Part shown: positions 1 through 7,480 of the stretch, one piece after another | Layout: the number at the start of each line of letters is the position of its first letter | Position numbering within the stretch: position 1 is the stretch's first letter | Assembly: GCA_900755865.1 (NCBI GenBank) | Contig: CAAEHZ010000276.1 | Span: 1-7,480, forward strand | Direction: 5' to 3' | DNA: 7,480 bases | From: Lachnospiraceae bacterium | Lineage (GTDB): Bacteria > Bacillota > Clostridia > Lachnospirales > Lachnospiraceae | Made by a program: the position numbers and the translations under genes | Notes under the pieces: generated by a model | Told to the model about the DNA's origin: nothing | The model's input: the letters and a program-made list of their open reading frames with translations, nothing else | Database searches by the model: none

Positions 1-469
1 GATAGGAAGGCATGACTGGAAGGGAAAGCTTGATTTACTGAACATAGTTATGATAGGATTAGCAAAAGAGCTTCCAGAGCACAGCGAGATGTATGAGCTG
101 CACCGGCTGCTGGGGGCGCTGTTGTCGAACAGACTTAGCCTGGGAGAGAAGTTGGATATCATCGGAGGAGAGTATGCAATCCCGATGGAAGAAGATTTGA
201 GGAAGGACGTGAGTGCTATGTGTAACCTGAGTCAGGGGATAGAGGAAGAAGGAATCGCGATAGGGCACGCCGCCGGATTGGAAGAAGGACGGACAGCCGG
301 ATTAGCAGAGGGACATGAAGCAGGTTTGATAGAAGGTGAAGCCGGACTGATTCTGAAAATGTATAAAAATGGCTTTACAGCGGAGCAGATAGCGGCGGGC
401 ACAGATAAGGATATAAAAGAAGTGGAAAGGATGATTACGGAAAGGAAATCCGCAGTGTCCCGTGATTAA
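1..469 (+). CDS. Rpn family PD-(D/E)XK nuclease/putative transposase, 3' part
   Basis: The frame is open from the left edge, so this is the C-terminal part of a longer protein; the ATG at 50 is internal, because in-frame codons from position 2 continue a plausible protein (RHDWKGKLDLLNIV). Rpn proteins are nuclease-fold proteins of the PDDEXK transposase family, linked to recombination and, in some bacteria, to phage defence; the catalytic core would lie upstream of the window. Counting from the ATG at 50, the visible part has a helical segment (about residues 1-56), then the GxxxG/GxxEG repeat run (about 64-100: GIEEEG, GLEEG, GLAEG, GLIEG), then a C-terminal helix pair (KMYKNGFTAEQIA...DIKEVERMI). 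This tail pattern is characteristic of the family. The gene ends at TAA 467-469 and is followed by a terminator. Whether the full gene is intact cannot be judged. An internal ATG at 218 has a fair ribosome site (see findings). Confidence 0.85.
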   Translation, partial: IGRHDWKGKLDLLNIVMIGLAKELPEHSEMYELHRLLGALLSNRLSLGEKLDIIGGEYAIPMEEDLRKDVSAMCNLSQGIEEEGIAIGHAAGLEEGRTAGLAEGHEAGLIEGEAGLILKMYKNGFTAEQIAAGTDKDIKEVERMITERKSAVSRD

Positions 470-527
470 TGTACCTCAAATGGCATAAGATGTAATAGGA
501 ATAAGAGATAAGAAATAAATGATAAAG

Positions 528-577
528 AACCTCCTAAGCAGACAAGGCAAAAGCCAAATCTGTCCGGGAGGTTTTTG
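528..577 (+). terminator. Rho-independent terminator after the Rpn gene
   Basis: An outer stem AACCTCC (528-534) pairs with GGAGGTT (567-573). Inside it are a small GGC-AAAA-GCC hairpin (546-555) and a possible CAGA/TCTG pairing. A T-run follows at 572-576. It lies 59 nt after the nuclease stop codon and before the promoter at 610, so it separates the two transcription units. Confidence 0.8.
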
Positions 578-599
578 TTATAAGAACAAAAAAGAAATA

Positions 600-620
600 G
601 ATGTAACTATTGACATTACA
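600..620. promoter_or_regulatory. Upstream operator-like inverted repeat overlapping -35
   Basis: GATGTAAC-N7-ATTACA, containing the dyad TGTAA-N9-TTACA (602-620). It covers the -35 hexamer (610-615). The same arrangement recurs at 643-663 with an identical left half, centre to centre 43 bp apart (about four helical turns). This is a typical layout for a dimeric repressor binding both sides of a promoter. The regulator is not encoded in the window and cannot be named. Confidence 0.6.
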
Positions 621-638
621 ACAAGGGAATGATATATT
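610..638 (+). promoter_or_regulatory. Sigma-A promoter of the PNPOx-remnant/SirTM/macrodomain unit
   Basis: TTGACA (610-615), a 17-nt spacer, TATATT (633-638). The -35 box is perfect, the spacing is optimal and the -10 has one mismatch. Transcription should start near 645, giving a leader of about 94 nt before the ATG at 739. The promoter sits between the two copies of the GATGTAAC-N7-ATTACA dyad. Confidence 0.8.
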
Positions 639-642
639 CCAT

Positions 643-663
643 GATGTAACAAAGATAATTACA
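643..663. promoter_or_regulatory. Downstream operator-like inverted repeat at the start site
   Basis: Second copy of GATGTAAC-N7-ATTACA. Here the dyad extends to ATGTAA-N9-TTACAT (644-664). It covers about +1 to +20 of the predicted transcript, so a bound protein would block initiation. Its left half is identical over 8 nt to the copy at 600-607. Confidence 0.6.
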
Positions 664-676
664 TTAAAAGCATAAT

Positions 677-713
677 GTGCATTTAGGAGGACTGGAAGCT
701 TCCGGTTATGCAC
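677..713 (+). other. Leader hairpin with an embedded Shine-Dalgarno-like sequence
   Basis: GTGCAT (677-682) pairs with ATGCAC (708-713), enclosing the 10-bp palindrome GGAAGCTTCC (694-703). An AGGAGG at 685-690 lies in the left arm loop but has no well-placed start codon: the nearest ATG, at 708, is 17 nt away. The structure is in the predicted 5' leader, before the working ribosome site at 724-728. It could be a regulatory fold or just a leftover of the ancestral leader. Confidence 0.4.
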
Positions 714-738
714 GAAACAAAATGGAGGAAGAAAAGAA

Positions 739-852
739 ATGGAAAAAGTAGTAGAATTTTTACAGGAAAACCCGGTACAGTATCTGGCAACCGTAGGACG
801 TGATGGAAAGGTGGGTTCGGTATGTTTGGCTGGAGAACAGAAAAAGCGATAA
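739..852 (+). pseudogene. N-terminal remnant of a pyridoxamine 5'-phosphate oxidase-family protein
   Basis: A 37-codon ORF with a good ribosome site (GGAGG 724-728, 10 nt before the ATG). The protein starts MEKVVEFLQENPVQYLATVG and continues RDGK. That is the opening helix and first beta strand (YLATV) of FMN-binding PNPOx-like split-barrel flavoproteins, which usually run to about 130-140 residues. After RDGK the match is lost (VGSVCLAGEQKKR) and a stop follows at 850-852. The ORF overlaps the first 31 nt of the sirtuin gene in another frame. I infer that a deletion joined the start of a flavoprotein gene to the start of the sirtuin gene. The surviving ORF may now act as a translated leader that feeds ribosomes to the sirtuin start. 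It is too short to fold as a flavin-binding barrel. The family assignment rests on remembered family patterns. Confidence 0.6.
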
Positions 853-1772
853 ATACGGCAGATGGAATCCAGAAGCTTCAAAGAGCGCTGCAGGAGGTAG
901 ATACGGTTATTATTGGTGCGGGGGCAGGCCTGTCTACATCAGCCGGATTTACCTACAGTGGAGAAAGATTCCGGAAATATTTTTCGGATTTTGCGGAGAA
1001 ATATGGATTTTCGGATATGTATTCCGGGGGATTTTATCCTTATAAAACGCTGGAGGAACACTGGGCATACTGGAGCCGCTATATCTGGATTAACCGATAT
1101 CAGAATCCGCCGAAGCCGGTTTACGATAAACTTTATGAACTGGTCAGGGAAAAGGACTATTTTGTGCTGACTACCAATGTAGACCATTGCTTTCAGAAAG
1201 CGGGGTTTGATAAGCATCGGTTGTTTTATACGCAGGGGGATTATGGACTGTTCCAGTGCAGTGAGTCCTGCTGTCAGGAAACCTGGGATAATGAAGAAAG
1301 CATCAGAAATATGCTGCTGGCGCAGGGATATAAGATTAGTGAGAGTGGCGAGCTGTTTGAACCGGAGGGTGAGAACCCGGAAGGCTTCAGGGGAACAGGA
1401 ATCCGTGGGACAATTCCCTCGGAGCTGGTTCCTCATTGTCCCCATTGCGGGAAACCGGTGAGCATGAATCTCCGGGCAGATAATACCTTTGTGGAGGATG
1501 CGGGCTGGAACAGGGCAGCGGAAAGATATTCTGAGTTTCTGCGCCGGCATAAAAATACCAGAACTTTGTTTTGGGAAATAGCCGTAGGGTATAACACCCC
1601 GGTTATAATAAAATATTCGTTCTGGCGTATGACGGCAGAATGGAAGGATGCAGCCTATGCCTGCCTGAACAATGGAGAAGCCTGCGCGCCGGATGAAATT
1701 CTGGTTAAAAGTATTTTGATAAACGGGGATGCAGGGAGCGTTATTTCAAGAGTCATGGAACACAATATTTGA
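822..1772 (+). CDS. Class M sirtuin (SirTM), likely NAD-dependent protein ADP-ribosyltransferase
   Basis: A 316-residue SIR2-family protein. Seen in sequence: the Rossmann NAD motif GAGAGLSTSAGF (32-43), TTNVD (117-121), and a zinc-ribbon insert with Cys146, Cys150/151 and the pair CPHC (206-209). In the position of the usual catalytic HG motif there is QGDYG with Gln138. Class M sirtuins characterised in Streptococcus and Staphylococcus have this Gln in place of His, and act as protein ADP-ribosyltransferases rather than deacylases; they use the Asn of TTN and this Gln. The substrate there is a lipoylated GcvH-like protein, which is not encoded in this window. The start at ATG 822 is chosen because the same frame has a stop at 801-803 and AAGGTGGG (808-815) lies 6 nt upstream. 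That ribosome site is formed by codons of the truncated flavoprotein ORF 739-852, which overlaps by 31 nt and may couple translation. The partner macrodomain gene follows after 78 nt. Function by family is firm; the target protein is unknown. Cytoplasmic, with no signal peptide. Confidence 0.9.
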   Translation: MFGWRTEKAINTADGIQKLQRALQEVDTVIIGAGAGLSTSAGFTYSGERFRKYFSDFAEKYGFSDMYSGGFYPYKTLEEHWAYWSRYIWINRYQNPPKPVYDKLYELVREKDYFVLTTNVDHCFQKAGFDKHRLFYTQGDYGLFQCSESCCQETWDNEESIRNMLLAQGYKISESGELFEPEGENPEGFRGTGIRGTIPSELVPHCPHCGKPVSMNLRADNTFVEDAGWNRAAERYSEFLRRHKNTRTLFWEIAVGYNTPVIIKYSFWRMTAEWKDAAYACLNNGEACAPDEILVKSILINGDAGSVISRVMEHNI

Positions 1773-1810
1773 TATTTCTTTACACCTTTATAGATATTTG
1801 CATGGGAACA

Positions 1811-1819
1811 TGTTATATT
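1811..1819 (+). promoter_or_regulatory. Possible extended -10 promoter for the macrodomain gene
   Basis: TGTTATATT is a full extended -10 (TGn plus TATATT, 1814-1819), in the 78-nt gap after the sirtuin. No good -35 box stands 16-18 nt upstream. The 8-bp palindrome AACATGTT (1807-1814) overlaps it. It could let the ADP-ribose-removing enzyme be made independently of the sirtuin. Weak evidence. Confidence 0.35.
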
Positions 1820-1850
1820 TTGAACAGATAGAATTTGTTGGAGCAGACAG

Positions 1851-2630
1851 ATGGAGCACATGGAACAGAGAAGGTGGCTGATTCAGAAGCTGCTGGATGA
1901 AGATACTTATTATAAGAATTACAGGATTCCGGAGGATGAAAAAGAGCAGAAAAATCTGCTGCGTTCTCTGATGAATGTCCGTATGCCAATGGCAATCAGT
2001 CAGGAATTTTTAGCGGTTCAGGACGAATATCTGAGGGAGGAGAACCGGAAAGCCGGGATTACGGATATCGCGGAGCTTTCTCCGGTAAAGCCGGACGGAA
2101 GAATCTATCTGTGGCAGGGAGATATTACTGCACTGAAAGTAGATGTAATTGTAAATGCCGCCAACAGTCAGATGTGCGGGTGCTTTCATCCCATGCATAA
2201 CTGCGTGGACAATATTATTCATTCAAAGGCGGGGATTGAACTGAGGCTTTGCTGCAATGATATTATGCAGAAGCAGGGGCATGAGGAGCCCACCGGGCAG
2301 GCAAAGATTACACCGGCTTTTAATCTGCCCTGCAAATATGTGATTCATACAGTAGGCCCTATTGTTCAGGGGCGGCTGCAGAAAAAGCATGAGGAACTTC
2401 TGGCATCCTGCTATCGTGCCTGTCTGGAGCTTGCAGAGAAAAATCAGGCTGAAAGTATTGCCTTCTGCTGTATTTCCACAGGAGTATTCTGTTTTCCGAA
2501 CCAGCGTGCCGGGGAAATTGCGGTGGAAACGGTTCAGAAATATTATGAGGAAACGGGAAGCAGGATGAAGGTTGTTTTCAATGTATTTAAGGATGAGGAT
2601 TTTGCCATTTACAACAGAATCTTACGATAA
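1851..2630 (+). CDS. SirTM-linked zinc macrodomain, protein-ADP-ribose hydrolase
   Basis: A 259-residue protein. An N-terminal helical extension (about 1-80) precedes a macrodomain (about 84-259). Motifs seen: QGDIT (89-93), NAANSQ (102-107), then GCFHPMHNC with Cys111, His116 and Cys118, DN(x)IH (120-124), AG (127-128), and the phosphate loop ISTGVFCFP (208-216). In the zinc-dependent macrodomains that accompany SirTM, this Cys/His/Cys set replaces the GGGVD-type loop of MacroD enzymes and holds a catalytic zinc. The expected reaction is removal of ADP-ribose from the protein modified by the sirtuin. The ATG at 1851 has TTGGAG 7 nt upstream; a second in-frame ATG (1860) is less well placed. 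Length and C-terminus (VVFNVFKDEDFAIY) are normal, so the gene appears complete. It directly follows the sirtuin gene in the same direction and is probably co-transcribed. Confidence 0.9.
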   Translation: MEHMEQRRWLIQKLLDEDTYYKNYRIPEDEKEQKNLLRSLMNVRMPMAISQEFLAVQDEYLREENRKAGITDIAELSPVKPDGRIYLWQGDITALKVDVIVNAANSQMCGCFHPMHNCVDNIIHSKAGIELRLCCNDIMQKQGHEEPTGQAKITPAFNLPCKYVIHTVGPIVQGRLQKKHEELLASCYRACLELAEKNQAESIAFCCISTGVFCFPNQRAGEIAVETVQKYYEETGSRMKVVFNVFKDEDFAIYNRILR

Positions 2631-2815
2631 GAACCTGAGTATAAACATATCAATTCAGATACGGGCAGTTATAATCTGGGGTATTTTCCGGTAAATAACG
2701 GGGCGCTGCCCAGAGAGAAAAGTACTCGCAGGAAAGTCAGAAGGCGTGGGAAGATACCCTTGATATTATCTTAAAAGCATTGAATGCATGCGAAGTGTTG
2801 GATTGTAGAGTATGA
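2631..2815 (+). pseudogene. Frameshifted 3' remnant of an unidentified gene
   Basis: Between the macrodomain stop and the next gene, two frames give protein-like text. From 2631 to about 2705 the frame in phase with the macrodomain reads EPEYKHINSDTGSYNLGYFP. From 2711 another frame reads QREKYSQESQKAWEDTLDII and on to LDCRV, stopping at 2813-2815. Joined through a frame change near 2705-2711 they look like the C-terminal 60 or so residues of one protein. The AWEDTLDIIL ending is faintly like the last helix of alpha/beta-hydrolase (dienelactone-hydrolase type) proteins, but I do not recognise the family. No start codon with a ribosome site is visible. It may mark the scar of a deletion behind the macrodomain gene. 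Confidence 0.4.
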
Positions 2816-2860
2816 TAGTCAATAAATGTATAAAAACCATAACAGAAAGGACCTCACCTT

Positions 2861-3814
2861 ATGAAAACAGAAAAAACAGTACCTGCTCCCCTTTATCGTG
2901 ACCCGATTTATGATGCTCCCACAGACCCGGTCATTATCTGGAACAGGGAGGAAAAATGCTGGTGGATGTTGTATACCCAGCGAAGGGATGCCCGTAACAG
3001 TATCGGGGTGGCGCATATTCACGGAACGGCTATCGGGGTAGCCTCTTCTCAGGATGGTTACAGATGGCTGTACCGGGGAACCCTGCCAAATCTGGAATTT
3101 GAGCCGGGACATAATACCTTCTGGGCGCCGGAGGTGATTTTTGAACAGGGAAAGTACCATATGTATGTAACCTATGTGCGGGGGATTCCCACGGACTGGA
3201 GCTGGCAGAGGTTTATTGTGCATTACACGGCGGAAAATCTGTGGGACTGGCATTTTGAGAGTATTCTGGAGCTTTCCTCGGACAGGGTAATCGATGCCTG
3301 TGTTTATAAAATCAATGAAAATACTTATAAAATGTGGTACAAGGATGAAGAGCATGATTCCCATACCTGGAGCGCGGTGAGCAGTGATTTATATCACTGG
3401 GACGTCTGTGGGGAGGAAATCAGCTTTAATTCCCATGAGGGACCGAATGTATTTGAATTTGGCGGAAGCAGGTGGATGATTACAGACGAGTGGAACGGAC
3501 TTGGCGTCTATAAGACAGAGGATTTTACGAACTGGGAAAGAAATGGTGTGATTTTGCGGGACGGGGGAAGCCGCCCCTGTGACGGAGTTATGGCAAATCA
3601 CGCAGACGTTGTGGTAAGCGGCGAAAATGCCTATATTTTTTATTTTACCCACCCCTATCACAGCAATGAAAACCGTCTGAAGCATATCGACAGCGGCGAG
3701 GATGCCTATCGTGCCTGTATTCAGGTGGCAAAGCTGGATACAGACGGTAAGGTTCTCACCTGTGACAGAGATGCGGAATTTGAGCTTGTATTACTTCCAG
3801 GGGAAGGTAATTAG
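2861..3814 (+). CDS. Cytoplasmic five-bladed beta-propeller glycoside hydrolase (GH43-like)
   Basis: 317 residues, no signal peptide and no membrane segment. The layout fits clan GH-F (GH43-type) glycosidases, which act on arabinose-, xylose- or galactose-type linkages: an early aspartate in APTDPVI (Asp22, expected general base), WAPEVIF (88-94) at the second blade, a central aspartate in VIDACVYK (Asp145, expected pKa modulator), and an acid glutamate in SHEGPNVF (Glu193). NHADV (His247) falls where these propellers often have a metal- or substrate-contacting histidine. Repeated W/Y-rich blade strands (YRWLYRG, WDWHFE, YHWDVCG, NWERNG) support the propeller. The ATG at 2861 has AGAAAGGA upstream at a 9-10-nt distance. 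No sugar transporter or sugar regulator is next to it, so the substrate cannot be inferred; related propeller families (GH117, GH32-like) are possible. The end of the gene overlaps the convergent transporter gene by 24 nt. A promoter is likely in 2790-2835 (TATAAA at 2829-2834), but no convincing -35 is visible. Confidence 0.75.
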   Translation: MKTEKTVPAPLYRDPIYDAPTDPVIIWNREEKCWWMLYTQRRDARNSIGVAHIHGTAIGVASSQDGYRWLYRGTLPNLEFEPGHNTFWAPEVIFEQGKYHMYVTYVRGIPTDWSWQRFIVHYTAENLWDWHFESILELSSDRVIDACVYKINENTYKMWYKDEEHDSHTWSAVSSDLYHWDVCGEEISFNSHEGPNVFEFGGSRWMITDEWNGLGVYKTEDFTNWERNGVILRDGGSRPCDGVMANHADVVVSGENAYIFYFTHPYHSNENRLKHIDSGEDAYRACIQVAKLDTDGKVLTCDRDAEFELVLLPGEGN

Positions 3815-5164
3815 TCCGTAAATATAAATGAAAAGGATGGCGCCGGGTACGATAAACCGGAAAAGGGGTTTCATCCAGGGCTTTATCTTTAGCCCCTTTC
3901 CGGTGTTTGCCTCCTTTACAAAGTTGTTCCAGCCCCAGCCCAGTCCGGTACAGCAGAACAGTGCCAGCACAAGAGAGCCCAGGGGCAGGACATTGGTGGA
4001 CACAATGAAATCCCAGAAATCCAGCCAGGTTGTACCTGCGGCGAAGGGCTGAAAATGCAGGACGCTGGAGCCGAGGGCGGTTGTCAGGGCAAGCAGGAAC
4101 AGAAGGCTTCCGCAAAGCGGGCAGCTTTGGGGGCGGGACCAGCCGGTCAGCTCCCGGAGCATTGCGAGAATATTTTCGCAGACACCAAGTACAGTGGACA
4201 TGGCGGCGAAAATCATAAACAGGAAGAACAAGGTTCCCCAGATGCGTCCGCCGGACATATTCTGGAATACCGTTGCCATAGTATCAAAAAGAAGGCTTGG
4301 CCCGGCATTTACCTCAAGTCCGTAGGTGAAGCAGGCGGGGAACATAATAATTCCCGCGATGATGGCAACAAAGGTGTCCAGAAAAATAACATGGACGGAT
4401 TCTCCCATGAGAGAGTGGTCTTTGCCGATATAGCTGCCGAAGATAGCCATGCCGCCCATGCCCGTAGACAGAGTAAAAAATGCCTGATTCATGGCGTTTA
4501 CAATAACGGAACCGTTGATTTTGGAAAAATCCGGTTTGAGGTAAAAGCGGAGTCCCTCCGCCGCACCGCTTAAGGTAATGCTGTGAATTCCGAGAATCAG
4601 CATCAGGACAAGCAGGGCAGTCATGATATATTTTGTGACCCGTTCCAGACCTCCCTGCAGGTCAAAACAGAGGATAATAAAGGCAATCAGGATAGTCACA
4701 AACAGAAAAATGACATTGATGTCAGGACGGGTAATCATTTCGGAGAAGCCCAGAGATGCGCTCTGCCCGGAAAGGAACTTGACAAAATAGTAAATAATCC
4801 ACCCGGTAACAACCGTATAAAATGCCATCAGGGAAACATTTCCCAACAGGCAAATCCATCCGAAAGGTCCCCATTTCTGACCGGGCTTCTGCAGCTTCTT
4901 ATACATATAGAGCGGACTGGTCTGAGCCGACCTGCCCACGGAAAATTCCATTACCATCGCAGGAAGTCCCAGCAAAATAAGGCAGAGGAGATATACCAGC
5001 ATAAAGCTGCCGCCTCCGTTCTGACCGCACATCCATGGAAATTTCCATACGTTTCCGCATCCGATGGCACATCCGGCGGAAAGCATAATAAACCCCATCC
5101 GGCTGCCAAGCTTTTCCCGGCCTCCCTGGTCTTGAGTTGTAAGATTATTTTCAGGCATGCTCAT
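3791..5164 (-). CDS. Neurotransmitter:sodium symporter (NSS) family amino-acid transporter
   Basis: Predicted 457-residue inner-membrane protein with about 11-12 membrane helices and a LeuT fold, importing an amino acid with sodium. Seen motifs: TM1 with GxGNVWKFPW and NGGGSF (36-54), the substrate/Na+ unwound region; LPAMVMEFSVGR (67-78) in TM2; TM6 with QAFFTLSTGMGGM and GSY (227-244); TM8 with AAMSTVLGVCENI (320-332). The substrate (aromatic, branched or other neutral amino acid) cannot be read from this. The reading frame is open up to a GTG at 5209, but that GTG lies in the terminal repeat of the element at 5198-5340. The ATG at 5164 (MSMPENN) is preferred because GGAGA stands 7-8 nt upstream, with a second GGAG slightly further; another ATG at 5158 is possible. 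The next gene upstream, putP, is divergent and also a sodium-coupled amino-acid carrier. The 3' end overlaps the glycosidase gene tail-to-tail. Confidence 0.92.
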   Translation of the reverse strand: MSMPENNLTTQDQGGREKLGSRMGFIMLSAGCAIGCGNVWKFPWMCGQNGGGSFMLVYLLCLILLGLPAMVMEFSVGRSAQTSPLYMYKKLQKPGQKWGPFGWICLLGNVSLMAFYTVVTGWIIYYFVKFLSGQSASLGFSEMITRPDINVIFLFVTILIAFIILCFDLQGGLERVTKYIMTALLVLMLILGIHSITLSGAAEGLRFYLKPDFSKINGSVIVNAMNQAFFTLSTGMGGMAIFGSYIGKDHSLMGESVHVIFLDTFVAIIAGIIMFPACFTYGLEVNAGPSLLFDTMATVFQNMSGGRIWGTLFFLFMIFAAMSTVLGVCENILAMLRELTGWSRPQSCPLCGSLLFLLALTTALGSSVLHFQPFAAGTTWLDFWDFIVSTNVLPLGSLVLALFCCTGLGWGWNNFVKEANTGKGLKIKPWMKPLFRFIVPGAILFIYIYGLITFPWK

Positions 5165-5197
5165 GCAATTTTCTCCATTCTCCAATATTTGTAAAAT

Positions 5198-5340
5198 GTA
5201 ACTATTCACAACCCCATTCGCAAAACCACCTCTGCGAGGCTTCCCTTTTGCTCATGTGGTTACTTCGCCATATAAAACTGCTTATCTGCCTGAATGCTTG
5301 CATTCGCAGAACGCAGTTTTGCATGGCTCCGAATAGTTAC
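5198..5340. repeat. 143-bp MITE-like element or structured leader with 10-bp terminal inverted repeats
   Basis: GTAACTATTC (5198-5207) and its perfect complement GAATAGTTAC (5331-5340) bound a segment packed with internal inverted repeats: AACCAC/GTGGTT (5224-5229/5256-5261), GCAAAA/TTTTGC (5220-5225/5246-5251), CCTC/GAGG (5229-5232/5236-5239), and the long hairpin at 5267-5327. CATTCGCA occurs twice (5215 and 5301). No ORF of note lies inside. It has the form of a small non-autonomous mobile repeat. No clear target duplication is visible: the flanks are AAAAT and CATTATA. Alternatively it is the folded 5' leader of the leftward transporter mRNA, whose predicted promoter lies just outside its right end. 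I match it to no known riboswitch class. Confidence 0.55.
5267..5327. repeat. Long imperfect hairpin
   Basis: Nested pairings: GCCAT (5267-5271) with ATGGC (5323-5327), AAAACTGC (5274-5281) with GCAGTTTT (5313-5320), TCTGC (5285-5289) with GCAGA (5306-5310), and GAATG/CATTC (5292-5296/5301-5305) closing a CTTG loop. About 23 base pairs interrupted by small bulges. It folds equally well on both strands. Only four T residues follow on either strand, so it is not a clear terminator. Confidence 0.75.
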
Positions 5341-5341
5341 C

Positions 5342-5371
5342 ATTATATACTACCGGAAGAGCATTAAGCAA
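5342..5371 (-). promoter_or_regulatory. Candidate promoter of the NSS transporter
   Basis: On the minus strand: TTGCTT (5371-5366), an 18-nt spacer, TATAAT (5347-5342). The -10 is perfect and the -35 weak. Transcription would begin near 5335, at the inner edge of the terminal repeat, giving a leader of about 170 nt that carries the hairpin at 5267-5327. Confidence 0.5.
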
Positions 5372-5485
5372 ACAGAAAAACAAAAATAAATCAAGTCAGT
5401 GAAAAGGCATAGTAACATTGTTCGATGTGGATACTATGAAGAAACAAAGCAGGAAGCAGTGAAAACGTAGAATGGATATAAAATA

Positions 5486-5527
5486 ACGATTTTGCAGGAA
5501 ATCAGCAAAATGAAATTGACGATTTTG
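5486..5527. repeat. Direct repeat pair ACGATTTTG with an inverted repeat
   Basis: ACGATTTTG occurs at 5486-5494 and 5519-5527, 33 bp apart (about three helical turns). ATTTTGC (5489-5495) also forms an inverted repeat with GCAAAAT (5505-5511) across 9 nt. It lies upstream of the putP promoter, where an activator or repressor could bind. The remaining sequence of 5372-5578 is AT-rich with no gene I can support. Confidence 0.4.
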
Positions 5528-5578
5528 TAGAAAGCGGAAGAATAGTAAATATAAAAGTGCATAAAAATACAGAAAATA

Positions 5579-5607
5579 TTGCATAAATACTCATTAAATG
5601 ATAGAAT
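5579..5607 (+). promoter_or_regulatory. putP promoter
   Basis: TTGCAT (5579-5584), a 17-nt spacer, TAGAAT (5602-5607). Start predicted near 5614, with a short leader of about 40 nt that contains the palindrome at 5618-5633. Confidence 0.65.
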
Positions 5608-5617
5608 ACAAAACAGA

Positions 5618-5633
5618 TTGAAGTTAACTTCAA
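5618..5633. promoter_or_regulatory. Perfect 16-bp palindrome, putative operator at the putP start site
   Basis: TTGAAGTTAACTTCAA, perfectly symmetrical, covers about +4 to +19 of the predicted putP transcript and ends just before the ribosome site (AAGGGAG, 5637-5643). The half-site resembles dyads bound by MerR-family proteins. Those normally lie in a long -35/-10 spacer, which is not the case here, so a roadblock repressor or an RNA hairpin next to the ribosome site is equally possible. Confidence 0.55.
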
Positions 5634-5652
5634 CAAAAGGGAGAGAGTGGGT

Positions 5653-7194
5653 ATGCTATCAACAATTAATTTCTGTATTATTACTGCTATTGTAATTTAT
5701 CTGCTTGCCATGCTTGCTGTGGGATTTCTTTTCAGCAAGGGAAATTCCGACAGTACGGATTTTTACCTCGGAGGCAGAAAGATGGGGCCGCTTGTCACCG
5801 CCATGAGCGCGGAAGCAAGTGATATGTCAAGCTGGCTTCTGATGGGGCTTCCGGGGGTTGCTTATTTAAGCGGAATCTGTGACGCTGCATGGACAGCAAT
5901 CGGTCTGGGAATTGGAACTTATTTGAACTGGCTGTTTGTGGCAAAGCGTCTGCGCCGTTATTCCAGCAATCTGGATGCAATCACAGTGCCGGATTTCTTT
6001 TCCAAACGGTTTCATGACAAAAAGAATATCCTAAACGCTATTGCAGCATTGGCAATCATCATTTTCTTTATTCCCTATACGGCTTCCGGGTTTGCAGCCT
6101 GCGGAAAGCTGTTTAACAGTCTGTTCGGTGTGAATTACATGACGGCAATGATTGTTTCTGCTTTTATTATTGTAGGTTATACCATTATGGGCGGCTTTAA
6201 GGCGGTATCTACCACAGATTTGATTCAGAGCTGCGTGATGACGCTGGCTCTGTGTATTGTTCTTGGGTTTGGAATTCATACAGCCGGCGGGTTTGATGCG
6301 GTTATGGATAATGCAGGAGCATTGCCGGGATATCTGAGTATGAACGCGACTTACAGTGTGGCAGAAGGAACAGCAAAGCCGTACAGCTTCATTACGATTC
6401 TTTCCACCCTTGCCTGGGGACTTGGATATTTTGGTATGCCTCATATTTTACTTCGGTTTATGGCGATTGAGGATGAGAAAAAGCTGGTGATTTCCCGTCG
6501 GGTGGCAACTATCTGGGTGTTTATTGCCATGGCAGCAGCTATTTTTATCGGTGTTGTAGGACTTGGCATGACAAAGGCGGGTGCGCTGGAATCTCTGGAG
6601 GGAAGTGCGAGTGAAACAGTCATTGTAAAGATTGCAGGGCTTATCAGTTCCCATGGTGTTTTCCCGGCGGTTATCGCGGGTGTGATTCTTGCCGGTATCA
6701 TGGCAGCAACCATGTCCACCGCAGACAGCCAGATGCTTGCGGCAGCTTCCAGTGTGTCCCAGAATATTTTACAGGATTTTCTACATATTAAGATGGACGG
6801 AAAAAAGAGTCTGGGAGCAGCCAGAATTACCATTCTTGCCGTCAGTGTCATTGCTGTATTTCTGGCAAGGGACCCGGACAGCAGTGTTTTCGGAATTGTA
6901 TCCTTCGCTTGGGCAGGATTTGGCGGTGCCTTTGGCGCGGCGATGCTCTGCGCGCTGTTCTGGAAGCGCTGTAATTTACAGGGTGCGCTGGCAGGCATGG
7001 TTGCCGGCGGCGTGATGGTATTTGTCTGGAAATATCTGGTGCGCCCGCTGGGAGGAGCCTGGAACATTTACGAACTCCTTCCCGCGTTCTTAATTTCCCT
7101 GTTTGCAATCATTGTGGTAAGCCTTTTGACAAAGGCACCGGACGAGAGCATTGAAAAGGAATTTGAAGCGGCAAAAACCGCAAAGACAAAGTAA
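5653..7194 (+). CDS. putP: Sodium/proline symporter PutP (SSS family)
   Basis: 513 residues, about 13 membrane helices; imports proline with sodium, for nutrition or osmotic protection. Motifs seen: DFYLGGRKMGP (36-46), SAEASDMSSWLLMGLPG (52-68), with Asp57 and Ser59 matching the sodium-site Asp55 and Ser57 of E. coli PutP; GYTIMGGFKAVSTTDLIQ (175-192); GYFGMPHILLRFMAI (258-272); AATMSTADSQMLAA (351-364), with Ser355-Thr356 matching the second sodium-binding pair Ser340-Thr341. Length is close to the 502 residues of E. coli PutP, so the gene is complete. The charged C-terminal tail (EKEFEAAKTAKTK) is normal for the family. The start at ATG 5653 is preferred over GTG 5647 because AAGGGAG lies 9 nt upstream of the ATG but only 3 nt from the GTG. 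It has its own promoter and a palindromic operator candidate. No proline-catabolism gene is adjacent. It is divergent from the NSS transporter. Confidence 0.95.
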   Translation: MLSTINFCIITAIVIYLLAMLAVGFLFSKGNSDSTDFYLGGRKMGPLVTAMSAEASDMSSWLLMGLPGVAYLSGICDAAWTAIGLGIGTYLNWLFVAKRLRRYSSNLDAITVPDFFSKRFHDKKNILNAIAALAIIIFFIPYTASGFAACGKLFNSLFGVNYMTAMIVSAFIIVGYTIMGGFKAVSTTDLIQSCVMTLALCIVLGFGIHTAGGFDAVMDNAGALPGYLSMNATYSVAEGTAKPYSFITILSTLAWGLGYFGMPHILLRFMAIEDEKKLVISRRVATIWVFIAMAAAIFIGVVGLGMTKAGALESLEGSASETVIVKIAGLISSHGVFPAVIAGVILAGIMAATMSTADSQMLAAASSVSQNILQDFLHIKMDGKKSLGAARITILAVSVIAVFLARDPDSSVFGIVSFAWAGFGGAFGAAMLCALFWKRCNLQGALAGMVAGGVMVFVWKYLVRPLGGAWNIYELLPAFLISLFAIIVVSLLTKAPDESIEKEFEAAKTAKTK

Positions 7195-7218
7195 CAGCAA
7201 CAAAGACGAAATTCAAAC

Positions 7219-7320
7219 TTAATGCTTGCGCAGATACTTGACCGCACACAGGATGACAAGAATGTGTGCGGTTATTTCTATAATATTGGACAAAACAGTT
7301 CCGGCAAATAAAAAGTTCAT
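7219..7320 (-). CDS. 33-residue putative single-span membrane protein
   Basis: A small ORF. The ATG at 7320 is preceded, 5 nt upstream, by the near-perfect ribosome site AAGGGAGG (complement of 7326-7333); stop at 7221-7219. The protein begins MNFLFAGTVLSNIIEITAHI, continues as the hydrophobic stretch LVILCAV, and ends with the basic tail KYLRKH. This reads as one membrane helix with Glu15 and His19 inside it and a positively charged, probably cytoplasmic, end. Two overlapping promoter candidates lie upstream (7351-7391). I do not recognise the family. Options are a small regulatory membrane protein for a transporter (the stop is 25 nt from the convergent putP stop) or a type I toxin-like peptide. 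The coding sequence contains a perfect 10-bp inverted repeat (7241-7272). Confidence 0.65.
   Translation of the reverse strand: MNFLFAGTVLSNIIEITAHILVILCAVKYLRKH
7241..7277 (+). terminator. Probable terminator of putP, inside the small convergent ORF
   Basis: ACCGCACACA (7241-7250) pairs perfectly with TGTGTGCGGT (7263-7272) across a 12-nt loop, followed by TATTTCTAT. The stem is strong and the T-tract weak. It lies 47 nt after the putP stop. On the minus strand no T-run follows, so it would act only for putP, while being translated as part of the small ORF on the other strand. Confidence 0.6.
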
Positions 7321-7350
7321 AAGAGCCTCCCTTACAATTTTTTTGTGTAT

Positions 7351-7391
7351 AATATATGGTTATAATACCATGTAGACAATCAAAAATGCAA
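7351..7391 (-). promoter_or_regulatory. Overlapping promoters and palindrome for the 33-residue ORF
   Basis: On the minus strand, TTGTCT (7379-7374), 17 nt, TATATT (7356-7351), and also TTGCAT (7391-7386), 18 nt, TATTAT (7367-7362). The inverted repeat ATGGT-N6-ACCAT (7356-7371) sits over both -10 regions and could be an operator. Either promoter gives a short leader of roughly 20-35 nt before the strong ribosome site. Confidence 0.55.
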
Positions 7392-7394
7392 CGA

Positions 7395-7423
7395 TTGATA
7401 TTATACCCGAGATAAGATATAAT
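7395..7423 (+). promoter_or_regulatory. Strong rightward sigma-A promoter at the window edge
   Basis: TTGATA (7395-7400), a 17-nt spacer, TATAAT (7418-7423): one mismatch in total. Transcription would start near 7430 and leave the window. It is divergent from the small-ORF promoters. The first 50 nt contain no clear ribosome site or start codon but do contain a small hairpin, AAGCAC/GTGCTT (7457-7462/7470-7475). The product, protein or RNA, is not visible. Confidence 0.6.
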
Positions 7424-7480
7424 GAGCGCAGGCAATGAGCAGTGCCATACAATAAAAAGCACATATGCCGTGCTTGCACA

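Follow-up and report, generated by a model that had tools for sequence, protein, structure and literature searches.

What does a sirtuin paired with a macrodomain protein act on when no genes for lipoylated proteins stand beside it, and which signal calls for its expression? These questions are raised by a 7,480-nucleotide stretch of Lachnospiraceae DNA (contig CAAEHZ010000276.1 of assembly GCA_900755865.1, positions 1 to 7,480, hereafter the window), in which intact genes for a class M sirtuin (SirTM) and a zinc-dependent macrodomain protein (Zn-Macro) lie behind a promoter-like sequence and two perfect copies of a stress-sensor operator motif (Table 1). We lean towards reading the pair as an ON/OFF ADP-ribosylation switch induced by quinones or electrophiles, with a target predicted to be non-lipoyl. 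The lone pair is already known; what the present analysis adds is the stress-sensor operators and, in relatives of the window, an association of SirTM with a cysteine-rich ACGX-repeat peptide.

Indeed, passages of PMC4518038 place bacterial SirTM and macrodomain genes in independent or extended operons and recorded Lachnospiraceae among the hosts in 2015, so that the novelty which the first-pass annotation of this DNA had suggested for the lone pair does not stand. With the minimal operon, as parts of that paper and of PMC11490716 describe it, the window shares the adjacent genes, the replacement of HG by QG and the zinc loop. The main text of these two papers contains no mention of Rrf2, HxlR or quinone, and the operators and truncated first gene of the window are not described there. 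The extended operon of Staphylococcus and Streptococcus, which includes GcvH-L, LplA2, an old yellow enzyme (OYE) and a luciferase-like monooxygenase (LLM), has the same two enzymes, and its link to redox stress is published, whereas for the window we infer that link. In contrast to the extended operon, the seven main open reading frames (ORFs) of the window, which our Pfam and NCBIfam scan covered, gave no match to GcvH-L, LplA, LLM or OYE, and thus contain neither lipoyl carrier nor ligase, as the first-pass annotation had noted; lipoylation genes were not found in most of 50 related genomes either. In PMC11490716 (2024), GcvH-L is the sole known SirTM target, and the targets of other SirTM/Zn-Macro systems are stated to be unknown.

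Table 1. Coordinates of the features recognised in the window
Feature	Position	Strand	Basis and remarks
Possible Rpn-like (recombination-promoting nuclease) C-terminal piece	2-469		Weak match under cut-off
Candidate operator 1, TGTAA-N9-TTACA, TGTAACTATTGACATTACA	602..620	.	Exact SifR/HypR consensus match; candidate by sequence
Promoter-like TTGACA-17-TATATT	610..638	+	11/12 consensus positions; TG before -10; -35 within operator 1
Candidate operator 2, TGTAA-N9-TTACA, TGTAACAAAGATAATTACA	645..663	.	Perfect palindrome; candidate by sequence
Truncated PNPOx-type flavoprotein ORF, 37 codons	739..852	+	Codons 1-24 (739-810) homologous; overlaps SirTM start
Class M sirtuin (SirTM), intact, 316 aa	822..1772	+	ORF, SpySirTM alignment, residues
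Zinc-dependent macrodomain (Zn-Macro), intact, 259 aa	1851..2630	+	NF003163, PF01661, residues
SNF-family sodium-dependent transporter	3791-5209	-	Pfam/NCBIfam
PutP-like sodium/proline symporter	5647-7194	+	Pfam/NCBIfam

The SirTM and Zn-Macro genes

The first protein of the pair matches SpySirTM (PDB 5a3a) at 2.1e-60 and 207.9 bits, and scores 20.6 bits against the general SIR2 model of Pfam, under the 24-bit cut-off. QGDYG occupies the catalytic HG position (Gln138), and the QG-for-HG replacement is present in 80 of the 81 SirTM rows formed by the window and 80 related loci. Residues Asn118, Gln137 and Arg192 of the Spy enzyme correspond in the alignment to Asn119, Gln138 and Arg218, all kept; this mapping used a chain-numbering offset of 10 that we derived ourselves, and the letters of the window were checked. 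The related loci are the best 80 from a scan of genome contigs that yielded at least 587 SirTM relatives: they hold the closest SirTMs, their titles are mostly Lachnospiraceae, and all neighbourhood counts given below apply to these 80 alone. The species of the window is absent from them, the top SirTM identity being 69% (72% in the 397-genome family sample described below), and the position of the window among the 81 SirTMs was not resolved by phylogeny.

The second protein, encoded on the same strand after a gap of 78 bp, matches NF003163 (protein-ADP-ribose hydrolase) with 365.6 bits for a cut-off of 272, and PF01661 at 2.8e-39. Among its solved relatives, which bear the names given in PMC11490716, MorMacro scores 267.3 bits, SauMacro 259.5 and SpyMacro 192.4. 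NAAN at residue 102 is followed by a Cx4HxC zinc loop (Cys111/His116/Cys118), and the protein has an N-terminal extension, NF003163 covering residues 3-258 and ordinary macrodomain models starting at 84. Both the sirtuin with QGDYG in place of HG and the macrodomain with the zinc-type loop had been proposed from the sequence at first pass, and these matches and residues confirm them. According to PMC11490716, Zn-Macros remove cysteine-linked ADP-ribose.

By tblastn, Zn-Macro was found in 50 of the 80 related loci. Their gene order is Macro-SirTM in 42 and SirTM-Macro in 8, and the second, rarer order, which is that of the window, is one of its differences from the minimal operon. The other 30 loci are without Zn-Macro in the fetched stretch (for example L006, L013, L020 and L074). 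Genome-wide searches for Zn-Macro, GcvH and LplA/LipB covered 50 genomes, from 50 of the best 80 loci. Zn-Macro is present in 47 of them with an E-value of 1e-20 or below, 45 of which exceed the cut-off, and elsewhere in the genome in 15 of the 18 searched genomes whose SirTM locus has none; in G032, G049 and G050 it was found neither at the SirTM locus nor elsewhere.

A few observations on SirTM itself may be added. A second SirTM gene or piece lies inside one locus in L012, L021, L024, L031 and L069, pieces also occur in L025, L038 and L062, and P0003, P0004 and P0005 are single proteins in which SirTM occurs twice, in full or for the greater part. A SirTM fragment was found at 1331-1683 of L001 (MT838206.1), a contig from human faeces that carries no annotation and was submitted under the title 'Bacteriophage sp.'; it is probably bacterial DNA. 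A DUF1848 gene lies downstream of SirTM in four loci (L035, L039, L047 and L076).

The promoter region and its operators

How might the pair be controlled? The motif TGTAA-N9-TTACA occurs twice in the window, compared with a mean of 0.01 in 200 shuffles, none of which contained it twice. Section 6 of PMC9218516 assigns this sequence to two sensors, as operator to SifR, which senses quinones, and as motif to HypR, which senses hypochlorous acid (HOCl). The promoter scan of the window returned 6 promoter-like sites for 4.3 expected, so that the number of such sites is no evidence alone.

Recurrence of the operator in other genomes was assessed in a family sample, 397 genomes belonging to the same family as Blautia sp. 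An249 (cut-offs of E 1e-30 for SirTM, 1e-15 for LplA and 1e-90 for rSAM_ACGX, or better). Among them, 29 contain the operator 1 19-mer, at 31 places in all, and none the reversed-pattern control; SirTM is present in 22 of the 29 genomes against 155 of the 368 others (odds ratio 4.3, p 7e-4). For 30 fetched sites the neighbourhood, up to 1.5 kb on each side, was searched with ten query genes. The sites share the layout of the window: 21 have another perfect TGTAA-N9-TTACA no more than 100 bp downstream, a number that rises to all 30 if up to two mismatches are allowed, and a -10 (at least 4/6, spacer 16-18) is present at 29. SirTM or Zn-Macro is a neighbour at 15 sites, a SifR/YwnA-like Rrf2 gene at 17, PNPOx types at 8, SnoaL-like genes at 7 and YwnB/NmrA at 6, four sites having none of the ten. 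The 49 control stretches, more than 6 kb from SirTM, gave one Rrf2, one NmrA and one nitroreductase; their lack of SirTM and Zn-Macro follows in part from their having been chosen away from SirTM. By our estimate, with one or two SirTM genes per ~3 Mb, a random 3-kb stretch has one in ~1/1000 of cases.

The Rrf2 proteins encoded next to the operator all keep (17/17) the Cys-Pro-(Val/Ile) that sections of PMC9218516 give as the signature of SifR-type Rrf2. In the published SifR/YwnA regulon, as far as those sections describe it, the members are catechol and iron genes, yhdA and ywnB, YwnB being both a SifR target and a quinone reductase. The window shares the operator of this regulon, and the likeness extends in relatives to the Rrf2 and YwnB-type neighbours of the same 19-mer; SirTM and Zn-Macro would be putative further members, as our comparison suggests. 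In L009, the same double operator (2232-2293) precedes a YwnB/NmrA-like gene, ~7.7 kb from the SirTM gene of that locus.

Between the operators and SirTM lies the truncated flavoprotein ORF. Codons 1-24 share 83-88% identity with the standalone gene for a PNPOx-type flavoprotein present in L075, L049 and L021 (80% over 25 aa, 2e-10, by tblastn), and the remnant is 62% identical over 39 aa to the PNPOx of L046; in these four loci the PNPOx gene is upstream of Macro/SirTM. The flavoprotein remnant noted upstream at first pass is thus borne out, and it looks like what is left of the first gene of this promoter. The same build, operator, remnant, SirTM and Zn-Macro, is found with other remnants in L109 (YwnB, 32 aa) and L120 (SnoaL C-terminus, 35 aa), whose SirTMs are 42-43% identical to that of the window, and in L003 the operator stands immediately before SirTM. 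On the simplest reading, SirTM pairs may on more than one occasion have taken the place of this promoter's first gene and retained its control.

Lipoylation genes and the ACGX peptide in relatives

Is the target nevertheless a lipoylated protein encoded at a distance? Full-length GcvH (E <1e-30) is present in 6 of the 50 genomes with close SirTM relatives, and the LplA/LipB catalytic domain in 7. GCV_H matched in 22 genomes at E 0.001 and in 16 over the cut-off; 10 of these 16 are only partial, with 21-26 bits and in one case three stops, and were not counted as GcvH. Among 14 control genomes the GcvH search was positive in 13 (10 over the cut-off) and the LplA/LipB search in 12. In the six genomes with full GcvH, it is always on a contig other than that of every listed Zn-Macro match, and in three it lies within 5 kb of LplA. 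SirTM is common in the family sample, with 177 positive genomes; LplA is found in 77 and both in 38, which amounts to independence (odds ratio 1.27, p 0.37), and in most of the SirTM-positive genomes (139/177) no LplA/LipB-type gene was found.

Because full GcvH and LplA/LipB are so scarce, and SirTM and LplA are distributed independently, the staphylococcal lipoyl link is not the rule in these relatives, and GcvH-L/LplA was rejected as their general partner. The same scarcity makes a non-lipoyl target probable, in line with the suggestion of the first-pass annotation that the pair acts on a target encoded elsewhere or on another substrate. Its alternative, that the pair was separated from its operon by rearrangement, has to be divided. 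Separation from a GcvH-L operon is unsupported, as GcvH and LplA were not found in most of the relatives' genomes. Rearrangement of another operon is likely, since a promoter, two operators and 24 PNPOx codons remain upstream.

What does accompany SirTM in the relatives? Clustering of the ORFs within 6 kb of SirTM revealed a recurring operon, complete in few loci, whose parts are, in order, a divergent HxlR-type regulator, the ACGX peptide, the radical SAM protein rSAM_ACGX, a nitroreductase or quinone-oxidoreductase-like protein, a PNPOx protein with two [4Fe-4S] motifs, Zn-Macro and SirTM. In the 80 loci the divergent regulator, which is RrpB-like (133.8 bits, under the cut-off of 175), is present in 29, the ACGX-repeat peptide in 22 (TIGR04341, 79 bits in L018) and rSAM_ACGX in 23 (TIGR04340, 605 bits in L018); nitroreductases are near SirTM in 14, quinone-oxidoreductase-like genes in 6 and PNPOx-type genes in 31. 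The 20 peptides that are not cut by a contig end contain four to eight cysteines.

Of the 80 loci, 25 have the ACGX peptide or its radical SAM protein no more than ~6 kb from SirTM, most often in front of PNPOx-Fd, Zn-Macro and SirTM, and 14 of these 25 also have Zn-Macro; among loci with over 5 kb upstream, the share is 20 of 57. In the family sample, rSAM_ACGX is found in 53 genomes, 48 of which have SirTM against 129 of the 344 others (odds ratio 16, p 1.3e-13), leaving five genomes with rSAM_ACGX and no SirTM match. Kinship inflates this p value; physical linkage is independent of kinship, and a listed SirTM is within 4.3 kb of rSAM_ACGX at no fewer than 29 of 55 places. Furthermore, on a 62-row tree (19 of the 81 rows were dropped, namely the window and 18 loci with at most 5 kb upstream and no ACGX or rSAM), the ACGX label requires 15 changes for a shuffled mean of 19.8, with 6 of 500 shuffles as low; at least 7 changes are forced by well-supported branches, in a bootstrap that had not yet stabilised. 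These 15 changes suggest that the linkage was probably gained or lost repeatedly, and is recurrent rather than a single inheritance. Our literature search returned no text joining ACGX with radical SAM, nor any naming the TIGR04340 or TIGR04341 models.

The proposed switch, its rivals and other features of the window

In the switch that we propose, a SifR/YwnA-type Rrf2 repressor encoded elsewhere would occupy both operators in normal conditions. Electrophiles would hit its conserved cysteine and take it off the DNA, upon which SirTM and Zn-Macro would be produced together. SirTM would then move ADP-ribose from NAD+ onto the target, and Zn-Macro, which belongs to a class able to hydrolyse acidic-residue and cysteine links, would strip it off again. 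The best target candidates would be redox stress proteins bearing thiols, flavin or Fe-S clusters and, where it is present, the cysteine-rich ACGX peptide, in place of the staphylococcal lipoyl-GcvH-L. With an inducer class (quinones and electrophiles), an operator amenable to tests in Bacillus subtilis and candidate substrates led by this peptide, the question of the target becomes directly testable.

Several observations weigh against the proposed switch. The operator is a minority feature of the relatives, standing no more than 1.8 kb ahead of SirTM in just 5 of the 80 closest loci, and both SirTM and Zn-Macro are missing at 15 of the 30 operator loci. No Rrf2 gene was found in the window by tblastn, and the Rrf2 proteins adjacent to the operator elsewhere differ from the published regulon in carrying extra cysteines (at column 16 in 16/17 and column 84 in 13/17), so that they are SifR-like and not strictly one-cysteine proteins. 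A six-frame scan found no ACGX frame in the window, nor did tblastn find an rSAM_ACGX match there, so that the ACGX system is absent from it; in addition, 129 of the 177 SirTM genomes have no rSAM_ACGX match, and the peptide is therefore not a general substrate. The 38 SirTM genomes with LplA could have a lipoyl link. Counts across related genomes are not independent, and those from the 50 and 397 genomes come from genomes of unstated completeness. Finally, none of the 30 operator loci has a radical SAM, HxlR or nitroreductase gene. The ACGX operons carry a divergent HxlR, and of the 31 regions upstream of HxlR genes, from 29 loci, 0 contain the operator; an HxlR-type regulator was rejected on this count as the protein that reads the two sites of the window. 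These two zeros indicate two regulatory settings and not one: the redox settings of SirTM pairs number two or more, HxlR/ACGX and Rrf2/operator among them, with many loci in neither, and the window belongs to the second.

Which protein, then, would be modified? Of the candidates, the ACGX peptide holds the greatest interest, being rich in cysteine, while the eraser class can cut cysteine-linked ADP-ribose. That SirTM and Zn-Macro of Lachnospiraceae reversibly ADP-ribosylate cysteines or acidic spacer residues of radical-SAM-matured ACGX peptides is nonetheless a tentative idea, and on balance an unlikely one. If true, this would be the first sirtuin-controlled ribosomally synthesized and post-translationally modified peptide, a thiol-rich peptide replacing lipoyl-GcvH-L as redox carrier, and S-ADP-ribosylation would cap its thiols until redox stress needs them. 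We give about as little credence to a substrate among the other members of the stress operons, that is the PNPOx protein with two [4Fe-4S] motifs, a YwnB-like reductase or a nitroreductase. The PNPOx-type and nitroreductase genes near SirTM (31 and 14 of the 80 loci) and the PNPOx remnant kept in the window speak for such a substrate, but each candidate is present in only part of the loci, and the pair is intact in the window where PNPOx is cut to 24 codons, so that PNPOx is not required in cis.

The known GcvH-L/LplA2 switch with its partners encoded elsewhere in the genome seems to us less likely still. The LplA/LipB-type genes and full GcvH genes of a minority of the genomes would allow it; against it stand the independence of LplA and SirTM, the separate contigs of full GcvH and listed Zn-Macro, the position of GcvH near LplA in three of these six genomes, and the inability of MorMacro, the best-scoring solved relative, to demodify SpyGcvH-L, which section 7 of PMC11490716 reports for this minimal-operon enzyme and for fungal fusions. 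Equally improbable, in our view, is a structural relative of the lipoyl domain, for example the biotin carrier protein of a carboxylase or decarboxylase. The weak partial GCV_H matches of 10 genomes would fit it, the frames concerned being, we presume, possible biotinyl-domain proteins, but the neighbour clusters found in three loci or more, only some of which were run against family models, yielded no recognisable protein of this kind. The view that the pair is a non-functional orphan which a rearrangement left behind has on its side the truncated gene upstream and a non-coding stretch downstream (2631-2860, where stops are shown in all three forward frames and no blastn match above 20 bp was found in 81 fetched loci). 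We hold it to be very improbable, as both ORFs are intact with all the tested catalytic and zinc residues, both operators are perfect, and 99%-identity protein clusters represent several contigs (4 for P0001, 14 for P0121).

Other origins and functions were also considered. A plasmid origin was rejected, there being no plasmid match, and so was a phage origin, for which the one match covered 84 bp at 88% in a faecal contig that lacks annotation and was submitted as phage. The role of an anti-phage defence sirtuin was rejected too, PADLOC giving 0 families for either protein. The 'glycosidase' reported downstream of the pair corresponds to a borderline GH43 match (32.5 bits for a cut-off of 32.2). 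Further downstream, the SNF-family transporter and PutP-like symporter genes are divergently oriented, and the 143-bp stretch between them (5198-5340) has, by eye, inverted ends, GTAACTATTC and GAATAGTTAC, and looks like a small repeat element.

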